This document shows, piece by piece, positions 57,188-62,208 of a stretch of DNA of 64,000 nucleotides. This stretch comes from Psychrobacter sp. Choline-02u-9 (GTDB lineage Bacteria; Pseudomonadota; Gammaproteobacteria; Pseudomonadales; Moraxellaceae). The notes beneath the pieces are model-generated. The model ran no database searches, was not told the origin of the DNA, and saw only the letters and a list, made by a program, of their open reading frames with translations. Position 1 is the stretch's first letter, and every line of letters starts with the position of its first letter. The translations under genes were made by a program, and so were the position numbers. The stretch spans positions 1 to 64,000 of the forward strand of contig NZ_PJBF01000051.1 in assembly GCF_002836505.1 (NCBI RefSeq), written 5' to 3'.

Positions 57188-59941
57188 ATGCAACAGTTTC
57201 AGTCCTTACAACGCTTATTGATTTTTTATGCCTTGTCTCTCACGGTTATGTTACTGCTGTACTATGTCACAATGTTTGATGGGATGAAAAAACATAGTGA
57301 GCAACATAGCATAGATACTTTTTATGCCCTACAGCACAGTATTATTGAGCATGCAGCGCCTGTAGATAGTGAAATAAAAAAAATCTTAGAACAACCTACT
57401 TTTGATCACCTTAGTTATCAGCTGATTTTGATGATGCCTTCTGGGCAGACCTATATTCATCATAATACTCGTCCCAATGAATCTGCTTTTTCTACTGTTG
57501 CTTTCCCTACCATCGGCACTACCACTTTTAGCAGTAATAATCATAGCTCTTATACCGTCAATAGCAATGAACTAACAGGGATCATTAATCTAAAAAGCGG
57601 ACATCAGATTTATATCGTATTACGCCATGAGCCTTTTGTTGTCGACTGGATATCTTACCGTTATTGGCTTCCTTTGATGGTCGCCATCGTACTATTTTTC
57701 ATGGCATTGCTCTATATGCTCAATCGTCGAACTAACTGGGAACAATTACTGGTTTATACGGATAATTTGAGTAGCCGCGCAAAAGAATCTTATACACCGC
57801 CGCCGTTTTTACAAAAGAAATCTACTACCGAGTTCATGCTGTTAGGTCATGCGCTAAGTCGCGTCAGCTACCAACTACATAATGACTATCGGCGTATAAA
57901 AACATTGACTCATCGGTTAGAACGTCTGGTTGATCAGGCGCCCTTACCGATGTTGATGAGTATACGACATGGTCAAATTAGTTTCTATAATCAGCGTTTT
58001 GAGCAAGTATTTACTCCTCCTACACAGAGAGAGCAAAGCTATGAACTGACTGATTTCGTTGAAGGGAAAGATGAGGCCACTCAAATACTCTTAAAAACTA
58101 TTTCAAATTTACGCGTTACTCGCACACTGATAGTTTATGGCTTGGAGAACAAACAAGCCTACCAACTACACGTAACACCATGGTTCGGTGAACATGGGCA
58201 AGTTCACGGTTTCACTGTGATTTTTAATAATGTTGATGAGATTTTCCATCAGTCTGAACAACTACAGCTGCACAACCAACAACTGCAATTACAAATTGAT
58301 GAATCAAACGAAGCCCAAGCATTTATAGGTCGTAAGTTAAGGATACCACTAGAGAAGATAATTGATTCGTTGGAACCCATCGACCCTTCAACATTGACGG
58401 CTCAGGGTAAAAAGACTCTAAATACATTGATTGCAACCAGTCAAAGCATGTTGACTGTGCTCAATAAGACGCTAGCAACAGAGGAAGTTGAAGTCAGAAA
58501 AACACGTTTGAGTATAGAAACGGTTGATATTTACAAGGTAAGCAAAGAGGTTAGCAATTTAGTCACAAAAGAAATAAGACAACAAGGGTTAGAATTGATC
58601 TATTTCTTTGCGCCAGACTGTCCTCGTTACATCGAAACTGATTACATTCGACTGCACCATATCCTATTAAACATGTTGAAAAACGCTATTAGCTTTACAA
58701 CATCAGGCTATGTCGCGCTCACTGTTGATCGTGTACCTGAAGATAAAGTAACGCGAATAAGTAATCAGCATTTAACTCCTAACAATGACACGACAATGCC
58801 TGCGCAGACATCTTATTGGATTCGGTTTAGCGTAAAAGACACTGGAGCAACTATTACTCCTGAGAGAAAAAATCAATTAGTCAATATCTTGAATCAAAGC
58901 AATCATAACTTAGTTGAAGACAGTAATATTGGCTTGAGTGATGCCAATAGCTTTGCTCAGTTACTCGGCGGTTTTATCGAACTAAATAATACGGTGGATA
59001 AAGAAACGATATTTAGCCTCTACCTTCCTTATCCTCATGCCACTTATCAATCGGTATATCATCGTTGTTCGCAGCTGCCCCATATTCACCTTATCGCTGT
59101 CATCAATCAGCCTCTAGTTGCTGAACATTTACAACGTTTGTGCGAGTACTTAACGATATCCGTGACTATCTACAGCACTTTAGATAGAGCTACTGTACAG
59201 CAGCTAAAAAATAAATTAAAACAAGATGAGCAAACCGTCATTCCTATCTTGTTATTAGATTATGAATACAGCGAATCCATCACCTTATCAGCTCATGCGA
59301 GCAACAAGTATAGCGAGCAACAAGAAGTGTTAAACGACCTAGTCGCTACGCCTTCACTACCGAAGATATTACTTAGCATGAAACTTGAAAGGCATATCCC
59401 TTCTACTTTACTAGGCCAATATGATGGATTTTTGACCAAACCCTTGGACGCAAGTTTACTACTGTCTGAACTGCTACGTTTAACCTTGTTTGCAAGGAAA
59501 ACGCTAAACATACTGGTCAAACATCAATACGACAGTAGTCTATCTTTTGTAGAAGATATACCTAAGAAAGAAATCTTGTCTCCACTGATTTTGGTCGTAG
59601 AAGACAGTCCTACTAACCAAAAGATAGCCTGTAAGATGTTAAGTAAGCTTGGTTATCGTAGTATTGTCGCAGAAGATGGACAGCAAGCACTCGAGAAACT
59701 CAAAAGCCAACGTGAAGAAATTTCTTTGATTTTGATGGACTGCCGAATGCCCATTATGGATGGCTTACAAGCCACACAAGTGATTCGCTCGCAAGGTGAT
59801 AAAATACCAATTGTGGCGCTAACTGCGAATAATACAGAAGAAGATCGCGAGGCTTGTATACAAGTAGGTATGGACGAGTTTTTATCCAAACCCATTAGTA
59901 AGAAAGACTTAGAATCCGTTTTGCAGAGTTTTATACAATAA
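57188..59941 (+). CDS. Hybrid sensor protein with degenerate kinase core (GacS/BarA-like)
   Basis: A 917-residue membrane protein with helices at about 10-30 and 160-180 around a sensor domain of about 130 residues, a HAMP-like stretch, a PAS-like region (about 255-350), a histidine-kinase-like region (about 370-610), a degenerate receiver (about 640-780) and an intact C-terminal receiver (799-917). The final receiver has E805/D806, phosphoacceptor D851 (LMDCRMPIMDG) and the lysine in FLSKPIS. The H-box reads FIGRKLRIPL at 379-388, so R382 stands where the phosphorylated His should be. The ATP region has DTGATI instead of DTGxGI and SNIGLSD instead of the GxGLGL loop. It is therefore probably not an active autokinase and may act as an allosteric sensor or phosphoacceptor. 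Hpt is absent. Confidence 0.82.
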   Translation: MQQFQSLQRLLIFYALSLTVMLLLYYVTMFDGMKKHSEQHSIDTFYALQHSIIEHAAPVDSEIKKILEQPTFDHLSYQLILMMPSGQTYIHHNTRPNESAFSTVAFPTIGTTTFSSNNHSSYTVNSNELTGIINLKSGHQIYIVLRHEPFVVDWISYRYWLPLMVAIVLFFMALLYMLNRRTNWEQLLVYTDNLSSRAKESYTPPPFLQKKSTTEFMLLGHALSRVSYQLHNDYRRIKTLTHRLERLVDQAPLPMLMSIRHGQISFYNQRFEQVFTPPTQREQSYELTDFVEGKDEATQILLKTISNLRVTRTLIVYGLENKQAYQLHVTPWFGEHGQVHGFTVIFNNVDEIFHQSEQLQLHNQQLQLQIDESNEAQAFIGRKLRIPLEKIIDSLEPIDPSTLTAQGKKTLNTLIATSQSMLTVLNKTLATEEVEVRKTRLSIETVDIYKVSKEVSNLVTKEIRQQGLELIYFFAPDCPRYIETDYIRLHHILLNMLKNAISFTTSGYVALTVDRVPEDKVTRISNQHLTPNNDTTMPAQTSYWIRFSVKDTGATITPERKNQLVNILNQSNHNLVEDSNIGLSDANSFAQLLGGFIELNNTVDKETIFSLYLPYPHATYQSVYHRCSQLPHIHLIAVINQPLVAEHLQRLCEYLTISVTIYSTLDRATVQQLKNKLKQDEQTVIPILLLDYEYSESITLSAHASNKYSEQQEVLNDLVATPSLPKILLSMKLERHIPSTLLGQYDGFLTKPLDASLLLSELLRLTLFARKTLNILVKHQYDSSLSFVEDIPKKEILSPLILVVEDSPTNQKIACKMLSKLGYRSIVAEDGQQALEKLKSQREEISLILMDCRMPIMDGLQATQVIRSQGDKIPIVALTANNTEEDREACIQVGMDEFLSKPISKKDLESVLQSFIQ

Positions 59942-60046: not shown

Positions 60047-60721
60047 TTATTTCATAAACCCATTATCGGCCAGAAATGCTTCTGTGATTTGGCTTTGCGG
60101 GTTTGGCGCGTTCATACCCTCAGATTGAGGTTTATTTAGTAGTCGCTCTAGATAACGAGCCACGATATCTACTTCAATATTCACTTTGTTGCCTACTAAC
60201 CAATGCTTAGCGATATTCGTCACTTGAGCAGTATGCGGAATGATATTTAGAGAGACAATATTGTCACGCACTAAATTGGTCGTCAGACTAATACCATCTA
60301 CGGTAATAGAGCCTTTGGTCGCTGTATAGTGCGCTAGCTCTTGCGGTATCTCAATCTCAATGTAGATAGAACGAGCATCTTGTTGTAATTTGCTAACGAC
60401 CCCTACTCCATCTACATGACCGGCGACGATATGACCACCAAAACGAGTCGTTGGTAGCATGGCCTTTTCTAGATTGACCGTATGACCTGCTTTTAAACCT
60501 TCTAATGCTGTTCTAGCAATAGTTTCACGTGAGACATCAACAGAATAGTAGTTACTTCCGAGCTCCACCACAGTTAAACAAATACCATTTGATGCAATAG
60601 AATCGCCTAGCTTCACATCACTGAAATCTAAGTCATCAGACTCTACTGTTAAACGTATGTCACCGCCTGTCGCCTGCATAGATTTAACTTTTCCAACGCT
60701 TTCTATAATTCCAGTAAACAT
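60047..60721 (-). CDS. ribE: Riboflavin synthase, alpha chain
   Basis: Riboflavin synthase dismutates two lumazines into riboflavin and an aminopyrimidine. The 224 residues have two lumazine-binding barrels, the first starting MFTGIIESVGKV with the SNGICLTVVE motif and the second with GHVDGVG and SITVDGISLTTN, as in the family (called ribC in E. coli). A polar tail of about 20 residues follows. The upstream gap to ribD is unusual (see the oriC-like region). No FMN riboswitch is seen. Confidence 0.96.
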   Translation of the reverse strand: MFTGIIESVGKVKSMQATGGDIRLTVESDDLDFSDVKLGDSIASNGICLTVVELGSNYYSVDVSRETIARTALEGLKAGHTVNLEKAMLPTTRFGGHIVAGHVDGVGVVSKLQQDARSIYIEIEIPQELAHYTATKGSITVDGISLTTNLVRDNIVSLNIIPHTAQVTNIAKHWLVGNKVNIEVDIVARYLERLLNKPQSEGMNAPNPQSQITEAFLADNGFMK

Positions 60722-61031
60722 ATTACCCTCGTCTCATTACTGTATTGCCTTCATAGGCGAATATTTTAGTTTATCAAATCATCTATCAATTCTTTATCAC
60801 AACTTGTTCAAATAACTGACAGTGAAACATCGTTGGACTTGACCTTTAATAGGATATATTGTGGATAAGTATGGATAAATCAATAGAGGTATAGCTAGAA
60901 GCCGCTATAAATACATAGTTATCCACAACAAATGTAAATTTCTCATGGTACGCATTTATCTAGAGAATAAAACATAAGTTATTGATTTAAAATAATATTT
61001 TTAAATTCGTTTGAGAAATATACATCTTTCT

Positions 61032-61047
61032 TGTTTCATGTGAAACA
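61032..61047. promoter_or_regulatory. parS-like ParB binding site (oriC-like region)
   Basis: TGTTTCATGTGAAACA is one mismatch from canonical parS and the reverse complement of the 47825 and 63160 sites. Confidence 0.8.
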
Positions 61048-61058
61048 AAGTTATACAC

Positions 61059-61074
61059 AGTTCCATGTGAAACA
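61059..61074. promoter_or_regulatory. Degenerate parS-like site overlapping a DnaA-box-like motif
   Basis: AGTTCCATGTGAAACA has the full right half of parS with three differences from the consensus in the left half and centre. It begins at the last base of a DnaA-box-like TTATACACA (61051-61059). Confidence 0.55.
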
Positions 61075-61152
61075 CGTAAATCAATGATTAATTTATCCAC
61101 ATCTTGAGCTTATTCTTATGATTTGTGGACAACCTACTTATACGAAGAATAT

Positions 61153-62208
61153 TTATAAAGGTAATAAGGTTAATTTGAGATCTGATCCAAGCTGCTGATG
61201 ACTTTCTATATCAAACCGTAACTGCTGAGCAAGGGACATAGGATTGAAATCAACCATGGGACGTGCTTGCGCACCAAGTAAACAAGGTGCTTGATACACG
61301 ATTAGCTCATCTACTAACTGTTGACTCAAAAAACCACCTGCAACACTAGCACCTGCTTCTACCAACACATCATAACACTGGTGCTCACTAACCAGTTTCA
61401 CCAACAACATCGACAAATCATCTTCATGCCAATATATAGTATCTGGATGCTGACACAGCTGATACTCAGACTGTAGGCTGTGCTTTAAACGCTGACGCCT
61501 ATCAAGTATGACTATTTTAGGATTAGGTATTTTTTCAAGTGGCACGTCCAACTGTCTTGAGCGCACATTGAGCTGAGGGTTATCAGTTATTACGGTTTCA
61601 CTACCTGTAATAATCGCACCACTTTGTGCTCGTAGTTTTTGTACATCTTCGCGGGCAGCTGTCGAGGTAATCCACTTTGATTCACCAGATGCCATCGCTG
61701 TACGGCCATCTAAACTGGTCGCTATTTTCAATCGTACATAGGGCATCTGAGTGCGCATGGCTTTTAGAAACCCACGGTTTAGTGCCTCTGCTTGCTCTGT
61801 CAGGACACCGACTGTTACCTCAATGCCAGCTTGCTCTAATAGTTTCACACCGCGGCCTGCAACCTGTGGATTTGGATCCAGACCTGCAATCACAACGCGC
61901 TTTACCTTAGCGGCAACTAACGCCAATGCACATGGCGGCGTACGTCCCGTATGACTACATGGCTCTAATGTAACGTAAGCAGTTGCCCCTGCTGCCTGTG
62001 TACCAGCCTCTTTCAGCGCAAACACTTCTGCATGTGGCTCACCAGCTTTAGGGTGAAACCCTTGACCAACAATCTGCTCTGCCTGAACAATAATGCAGCC
62101 CACTGCAGGATTCGGTCGAGTAGTATACAAACCGCGCTTCGCTTGTTCGATAGCAAGCATCATAAAGTAGCGGTCTTGAGCATCTTGAGCATGGCTTTGA
62201 GTAGACAT
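61153..62208 (-). CDS. ribD: Bifunctional riboflavin biosynthesis deaminase/reductase
   Basis: RibD carries out deamination and then side-chain reduction of the pyrimidine intermediate. The 351 residues have the N-terminal deaminase (GCIIV..., catalytic HAEVFAL and CSHTGRTPPCALAL zinc site) and a C-terminal reductase domain (VRLKIATSLDGRTAMASGESKWIT, then LVEAGASVAGGFL). Both domains are complete. ribE lies downstream across the oriC-like gap and nrdR upstream, so the three are collinear. Confidence 0.95.
   Translation of the reverse strand: MSTQSHAQDAQDRYFMMLAIEQAKRGLYTTRPNPAVGCIIVQAEQIVGQGFHPKAGEPHAEVFALKEAGTQAAGATAYVTLEPCSHTGRTPPCALALVAAKVKRVVIAGLDPNPQVAGRGVKLLEQAGIEVTVGVLTEQAEALNRGFLKAMRTQMPYVRLKIATSLDGRTAMASGESKWITSTAAREDVQKLRAQSGAIITGSETVITDNPQLNVRSRQLDVPLEKIPNPKIVILDRRQRLKHSLQSEYQLCQHPDTIYWHEDDLSMLLVKLVSEHQCYDVLVEAGASVAGGFLSQQLVDELIVYQAPCLLGAQARPMVDFNPMSLAQQLRFDIESHQQLGSDLKLTLLPL

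Follow-up and report, generated by a model that had tools for sequence, protein, structure and literature searches.

The stretch analysed here, called the window, comprises 64,000 nucleotides of Psychrobacter sp. Choline-02u-9, and towards its right end the riboflavin genes ribE and ribD are separated by 431 bp that are gene-free, with open reading frames at both borders. The initial annotation had described a cluster of DnaA boxes between two riboflavin genes, and the curated family matches of both neighbours agree with it. The three exact TTATCCACA boxes, the three boxes with one change and the two parS-like palindromes that it counted are all present. Its tract of "nearly pure" A+T has to be toned down to 87% A+T over 55 bp, and a slightly richer tract lies near 52.4 kb of the window. 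The features of the locus are as follows:

60047-60721, minus strand: ribE (riboflavin synthase), the downstream gene; TIGR00187 and NF006767 above cut-offs, order kept in relatives
60722-61152, no strand: ribE-ribD intergenic region that holds the element, delimited by the bordering ORFs
60860-60868, minus strand: DnaA box A, TTATCCACA; exact in 64/64 aligned sequences
60870-60878, minus strand: one-change DnaA box TTATCCATA; partly conserved in the alignment
60919-60927, plus strand: DnaA box B, TTATCCACA, in the opposite orientation to box A; exact in 63/64
60953-61007, no strand: A+T-rich tract (87% A+T); little sequence conservation outside the IHF-type site
60975-60987, minus strand: IHF-type site AATCAATAACTTA, matching WATCARNNNNTTR; the aligned site fits in 51/64
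61033-61046, no strand: parS1, GTTTCATGTGAAAC; from the parS pattern and the alignment
61051-61059, plus strand: DnaA box C, TTATACACA, one change, between both parS and abutting parS2; from the alignment
61060-61073, no strand: parS2, GTTCCATGTGAAAC; from the parS pattern and the alignment
61093-61101, plus strand: DnaA box D, TTATCCACA; exact in 39/64
61124-61132, minus strand: DnaA box E, degenerate in the window (TTGTCCACA, one change); exact TTATCCACA in 28/64
61153-62208, minus strand: ribD, the upstream gene; TIGR00326 above cut-off, order kept in relatives

The names DnaA, RpmH, RnpA, YidC, MnmE, NrdR, RibD and RibE were given where curated family cut-offs were reached; DnaN, Fmt, YidD and the sensor-kinase name GacS are our own reading. 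RibD has at most 96% identity to the RibD of named Psychrobacter. The genome of the window consists of 71 contigs; the contig of the window stops just beyond yidC, and dnaA, rpmH and rnpA stand at one tip of a different contig. Psychrobacter loci long enough to show the arrangement have dnaN-dnaA on one side, followed by rpmH, rnpA, yidC, mnmE, nrdR, ribD, the gap and ribE. The distance from the dnaA start to the ribD end has a median of 6941 bp (6749-7956 bp, 51 loci), and the element is located about 6.3 kb beyond the rpmH start. We compared 67 Psychrobacter loci, 63 of them with a complete ribD-ribE gap of 354-722 bp (L008, L022, L037 and L056 are without one) and 19 without a usable dnaA-rpmH gap; the alignment of 64 sequences comprises the 63 complete gaps and the window.

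Contigs of several species break at nearly one position in the rnpA-yidC interval, some 4.5-4.8 kb upstream of ribD (among them contigs C7 and C12 of the window's own genome and the loci L011, L017, L023, L024, L028 and L031), and the end of C7 is extremely A+T-rich. A large hybrid sensor kinase with a receiver domain (57188-59941, family matches below cut-off) adjoins ribE in Psychrobacter; tblastn did not detect it in the pieces of genus g14 that were examined. Rfam gave no support for a riboswitch or another known RNA within the gap, its sole match in 56-64 kb being a chance-level miRNA outside it, and this reading was discarded.

The boxes and palindromes are strongly concentrated in the gap. 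When the 431 bp were shuffled 5000 times with dinucleotides preserved, exact boxes averaged 0.007 per shuffle and never exceeded 1, and at least one parS-like 14-mer appeared in 0.04% of the shuffles, compared with the two present. The best other 431-bp stretch of the window carries two exact or one-change boxes (mean 0.16). Over the whole window TTATNCACA was found 4 times vs 4.0 expected, a count that looked like chance because it ignored clustering: all four lie inside the gap. Among the 100 of 114 TTATNCACA places that were listed, only the group next to dnaA is larger (5 in 236 bp vs 4 in 242 bp). Both parS sites are GTTYCAYGTGRAAC-type palindromes, which cluster around the oriC region, and ParB is encoded in the genome. 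Across the whole genome 13 of the 14 mismatch-free parS-pattern places fall on C7 and C12, the contigs flanking dnaA-rpmH. The parS domain is wide (38-78 kb of C7 and 47-63 kb of C12), one lone exact site stands at C11:57760, and parB is located on contig C34.

The element is real and strongly conserved. None of the 63 complete Psychrobacter gaps lacks an exact box (median 3 per gap) or a parS (median 2), and the nearby gaps mnmE-nrdR, nrdR-ribD and ribE-gacS are without any box (0/64, 0/67 and 0/62 loci, respectively). Conservation of the boxes among related genomes, proposed in the initial annotation as a check, proved almost complete for boxes A and B, exact in 64 and 63 of the 64 sequences. 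Mean conservation is 0.946 over the 73 columns of boxes and parS vs 0.580 elsewhere in the alignment; none of 430 circular shifts attained this average, the largest reaching 0.927. On the other strand, box C reads TGTGTATAA in 47 or TGTGCATAA in 12 sequences, together 59/64, and it varies mainly at the degenerate N of TTWTNCACA, given as the DnaA-box consensus in the excerpted text of PMC12371093.

The spacings are conserved together with the sites. A box abuts a parS in 59 of the 64 sequences, and parS2, box C and parS1 form a nearly invariant block of 41 bp (61033-61073), in which the commonest parS spelling is found in 47/64 and 27/64 at the two sites. The spacing of the parS pair is 27 bp in 57 sequences, 37 bp in two, 47 bp in two and another value in three. 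Boxes A and B start 57-59 bp apart in 61 of the 64 Psychrobacter sequences; in genus g14 this distance is 57-60 bp in 10/20 genomes and 47-48 bp, about one helical turn less, in 8/20 (two could not be measured). Spacing in roughly helical steps of about 10 bp suggests that the face of the helix matters.

At the aligned place within the A+T-rich tract WATCARNNNNTTR, an IHF consensus quoted in the excerpt of PMC8407004, fits in 51 of the 64 sequences and is absent from 13. In the 46 sequences where it could be measured (five of the 51 could not), this putative IHF site is separated from box B by 59-62 bp and from parS1 by 58-61 bp. Matches of the WATCARNNNNTTR class have a density of 2.36 per kb in the gap vs 0.09-0.50 per kb in seven other gaps. 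Mononucleotide shuffling of the window's A+T-rich gap yields the consensus by chance in 11% of cases, so the case for the site rests on its conserved position.

Relatives of the element were found in two sister genera, g8 and g14, which we place in the Moraxella group. The parS-box composite (at most one mismatch) occurs in 91 of 105 Psychrobacter genomes, leaving 14 without it, and in 10 of 22 g14 genomes; it was found in none of 221 other genomes searched in the family and in none of 372 sampled from other families of the order. In g8 the exact composite is in 0/6 genomes and boxes with parS stand directly after ribD in 6/6; in the two genomes whose element sequence was examined, the box abuts parS from its other side. 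Two of the 22 g14 genomes have no ribE match, and in the remaining 20 the 600 bp upstream of ribE contain at least four boxes in 16, at least two in 19 and none in one. A parS match lies within this distance in 13; six of the seven genomes without one keep 2-4 boxes, and G227 has neither. The parS is not an obligatory part of the element. The sequences suggest that the element probably arose in an ancestor of Psychrobacter, g8 and g14 and that parS was lost in some lines.

Among the best-ranked open-access papers none described the ribE-ribD element; most subscription journals lie outside this set, and a description elsewhere is possible. No open-access paper was found on Psychrobacter together with origin of replication, GC skew and dnaA.

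The initial annotation had offered either oriC in an unusual place or a datA/DARS-like DnaA-binding element in the origin region. The first of these is not supported, and the ribD-ribE gap is very probably not oriC. A second box cluster, which the annotation had proposed to look for next to dnaA, is present in the dnaA-rpmH gap and is the larger one: counting boxes with at most one change, dnaA-rpmH comes out ahead of ribD-ribE in each of the 48 loci where both gaps are available. Within the densest 250 bp the median count is 8 boxes in dnaA-rpmH vs 4 in ribD-ribE, and consensus columns conserved in at least 85% of sequences number 259/592 vs 106/422. DnaA-trio repeats of the TA[AG] type, at least three, occur in 10/63 ribD-ribE gaps, 21/48 dnaA-rpmH gaps and 20/52 gaps of the rnpA-yidC control and do not discriminate.

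The cumulative GC skew points to the same place. It was computed along 400 kb of one genome and 200 kb of each of four others, four of the five being Psychrobacter and one g14. The distance of the minimum from the midpoint of dnaA-rpmH is 275, 994, 875, 893 and 1239 bp, compared with 5.4-7.6 kb from ribD-ribE. Coarse skew in 20-kb steps is noisy along G001 and cleaner along G004. At fourfold-degenerate sites, the genes between dnaA-rpmH and ribD-ribE have a pooled skew of +0.053 vs -0.102 for opposite-strand genes to the right, as expected for a start at dnaA-rpmH; the test is weak, with species that are not independent and single genes that disagree (rnpA -0.22, nrdR -0.13 and fmt -0.12, the last being leading under both models). 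Replication origin at ribD-ribE was rejected on the GC skew of the five genomes, the fourfold-site skew and the comparison with dnaA-rpmH. The initial annotation had said that its proposal would fall if the skew switched at another locus and the boxes were poorly conserved; the switch is indeed elsewhere, at dnaA-rpmH in 5/5 genomes, but boxes A and B are exact in 63-64 of 64 sequences.

Two further box sites were noticed in the neighbourhood. The rnpA-yidC gap upstream of yidC (around L003:10391, about 66390 of C12), situated between dnaA-rpmH and the element, contains at least one exact box in 47 of 52 Psychrobacter loci. The yidC-mnmE gap of the window's own genome has two exact boxes 20 bp apart (C12:64444-64472, L003:8445-8473), and 19 of 64 loci have an exact box there.

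The locus might still contribute to initiation as part of a bipartite origin, by providing a second site of unwinding or an arm loaded with DnaA that loops to dnaA-rpmH. Boxes, IHF-type site and A+T-rich tract occur together as in origins, exact boxes are about as dense as in dnaA-rpmH (6.7 vs 6.2 per kb), and the distance between the dnaA start and the ribD end is nearly fixed, as given above. Skew is a long-term average and leaves room for an occasional second start. Nevertheless, all five genomes have the minimum of the analysed stretch close to dnaA-rpmH, the fourfold-site skew of the intervening genes fits a start there, single genes scattering, and we saw no A+T block in the ribD-ribE alignment conserved like ATTATTATAG of dnaA-rpmH. 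We consider a second origin unlikely.

Control of ribE through its long leader by DnaA, possibly with ParB and without a role in replication, is suggested by the position of the gap upstream of ribE, by a promoter-like site overlapping parS1 and by DnaA doubling as a transcription factor (excerpt of PMC8203912). Promoter-like matches, however, number 4 in the gap vs a shuffle mean of 4.0, and a check of 24 genomes from other genera found neither box nor parS in the 600 bp preceding ribE. The element of two g8 genomes (G195 and G197) has remained behind ribD, with ribE on another contig or 4.5 kb away; since the element stays without an adjacent ribE, we rejected the ribE promoter as the whole story, and transcriptional control as the sole function appears quite unlikely. 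In these two genomes a sugar- or nucleoside-kinase-like gene follows the element (L238:14303-15325 and L239:12982-13992, family matches below cut-off).

That the element is only a centromere, one parS pair of the origin domain with the DnaA boxes as passengers, agrees with all exact parS matches of four Psychrobacter genomes, the element's pair included, lying in one domain of 63-145 kb around dnaA, but is very improbable given that boxes A and B (64/64 and 63/64 exact) out-conserve parS (commonest spelling 47/64 and 27/64) and that six of the 20 g14 genomes have boxes but no parS match at this place.

The second proposal of the initial annotation, a datA/DARS-like DnaA-binding element in the origin region, is supported by anatomy and conservation, and to its parts we add the IHF-type site, the fixed parS-DnaA box-parS block, the fixed spacings and the relatives in two sister genera. 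On balance, the element is probably an accessory, origin-proximal DnaA control site and not an origin, and its best reading is a putative datA-like site combined with a ParB loading site. Because the same layout recurs throughout the genus, a role in timing the restart of copying is probable. Binding of DnaA, IHF and ParB is predicted from the sequence motifs. DnaA would occupy the inverted pair A/B as well as boxes C, D and E. A bend made by IHF halfway between box B and the parS-box-parS block would draw the box groups together into a fixed geometry. At known bacterial fork speeds, a fork from dnaA-rpmH would copy the element within seconds of initiation. The two copies would then bind DnaA and probably help to inactivate it, delaying the next start as E. 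coli datA does. ParB would load at both parS flanking box C, and DnaA occupancy and the loading of ParB, possibly with condensin, at the young sister origins may influence each other, by which the end of initiation would be linked to the start of segregation. The ribE promoter would be a neighbour and not the purpose of the element.

A more specific and tentative version, possible but rather doubtful, would make the element a replication-segregation switch built from DNA, in which ParB loading around box C opens or closes an IHF-bent, datA-like complex that inactivates DnaA. The state of the freshly copied centromere would directly set DnaA activity, and re-initiation would be blocked until segregation has begun.

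In E. coli, datA is located much farther from oriC than the Psychrobacter element is. Unlike datA, the element is only about 7 kb from the likely oriC, its two parS are interlocked with a box, and it has the inverted, putatively high-affinity pair A/B. According to the excerpts of PMC10380432 and PMC10950094, datA is a 187-bp site near oriC with one IHF site among DnaA boxes, the spacings of which matter; with IHF it leads DnaA to hydrolyse its ATP, and its deletion causes untimely starts. It maps at 94.7 min (excerpt of PMC10380432). The likeness lies in a non-coding, origin-side site with several boxes around one IHF or IHF-type site, in spacing that counts and in replication soon after initiation (excerpts of PMC10380432, PMC4585315 and PMC10950094), the element's part in this being judged by its position and sequence. 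The element packs several boxes, three of them exact and three with one change, into 431 bp of non-coding DNA, the predicted IHF site stands among them at fixed spacing, and the position at a median of 6941 bp from the dnaA start is near oriC and would be replicated early. The absence of the element from the other Moraxellaceae genera sampled suggests an origin independent of E. coli datA. Like DARS1 and DARS2 of E. coli, it is a non-coding DnaA-box site, and DARS2 also uses IHF (excerpt of PMC4585315); the DARS themselves feature a core of three boxes, with Fis sites in DARS2, and the comparison covered boxes and IHF. The concentration of E. coli boxes near oriC favours titration (excerpt of PMC12371093).

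The element is also comparable to the DnaA-box clusters of B. subtilis, being a box cluster outside oriC; those are several loci, unlike the one conserved composite of Psychrobacter. In a review (excerpt of PMC5295017), removal of all six such clusters outside oriC leads to early initiation, but the review doubts that they matter much for initiation control, no cluster with a significant role having been identified in B. subtilis; this excerpt mentions neither an IHF-type site nor interlocked parS. With a chromosomal oriC of the dnaA-rpmH type the element shares DnaA boxes, an A+T-rich tract and the origin region, but it is off the GC-skew minimum, no conserved unwinding block was seen in it, and the larger, more conserved dnaA-rpmH cluster stands nearby.

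ParA acting on DnaA in B. subtilis is a known link between firing and segregation, operating through proteins. In the excerpt of PMC7614844 this control is independent of the location of parS, which weakens a positional link; interlocked sites are a separate matter. On chromosome II of Vibrio cholerae the segregation protein ParB2 controls replication (excerpt of PMC3688505), and unlike for the element the initiator is RctB, not DnaA (excerpt of PMC3937223).

Taken together, the element bears on how bacteria couple origin firing to origin segregation, with predicted DNA sites for the initiator and for the centromere protein interlocked in one short block throughout the genus and related blocks in two sister genera. 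Natural variants, with or without parS, with spacing steps of 10 bp and with ribE adjacent or moved, make such coupling testable by comparison. Against the known systems, the new part appears to be the parS interlocked with a DnaA box in a fixed composite, and the box-IHF-box anatomy would be the part that resembles E. coli datA.
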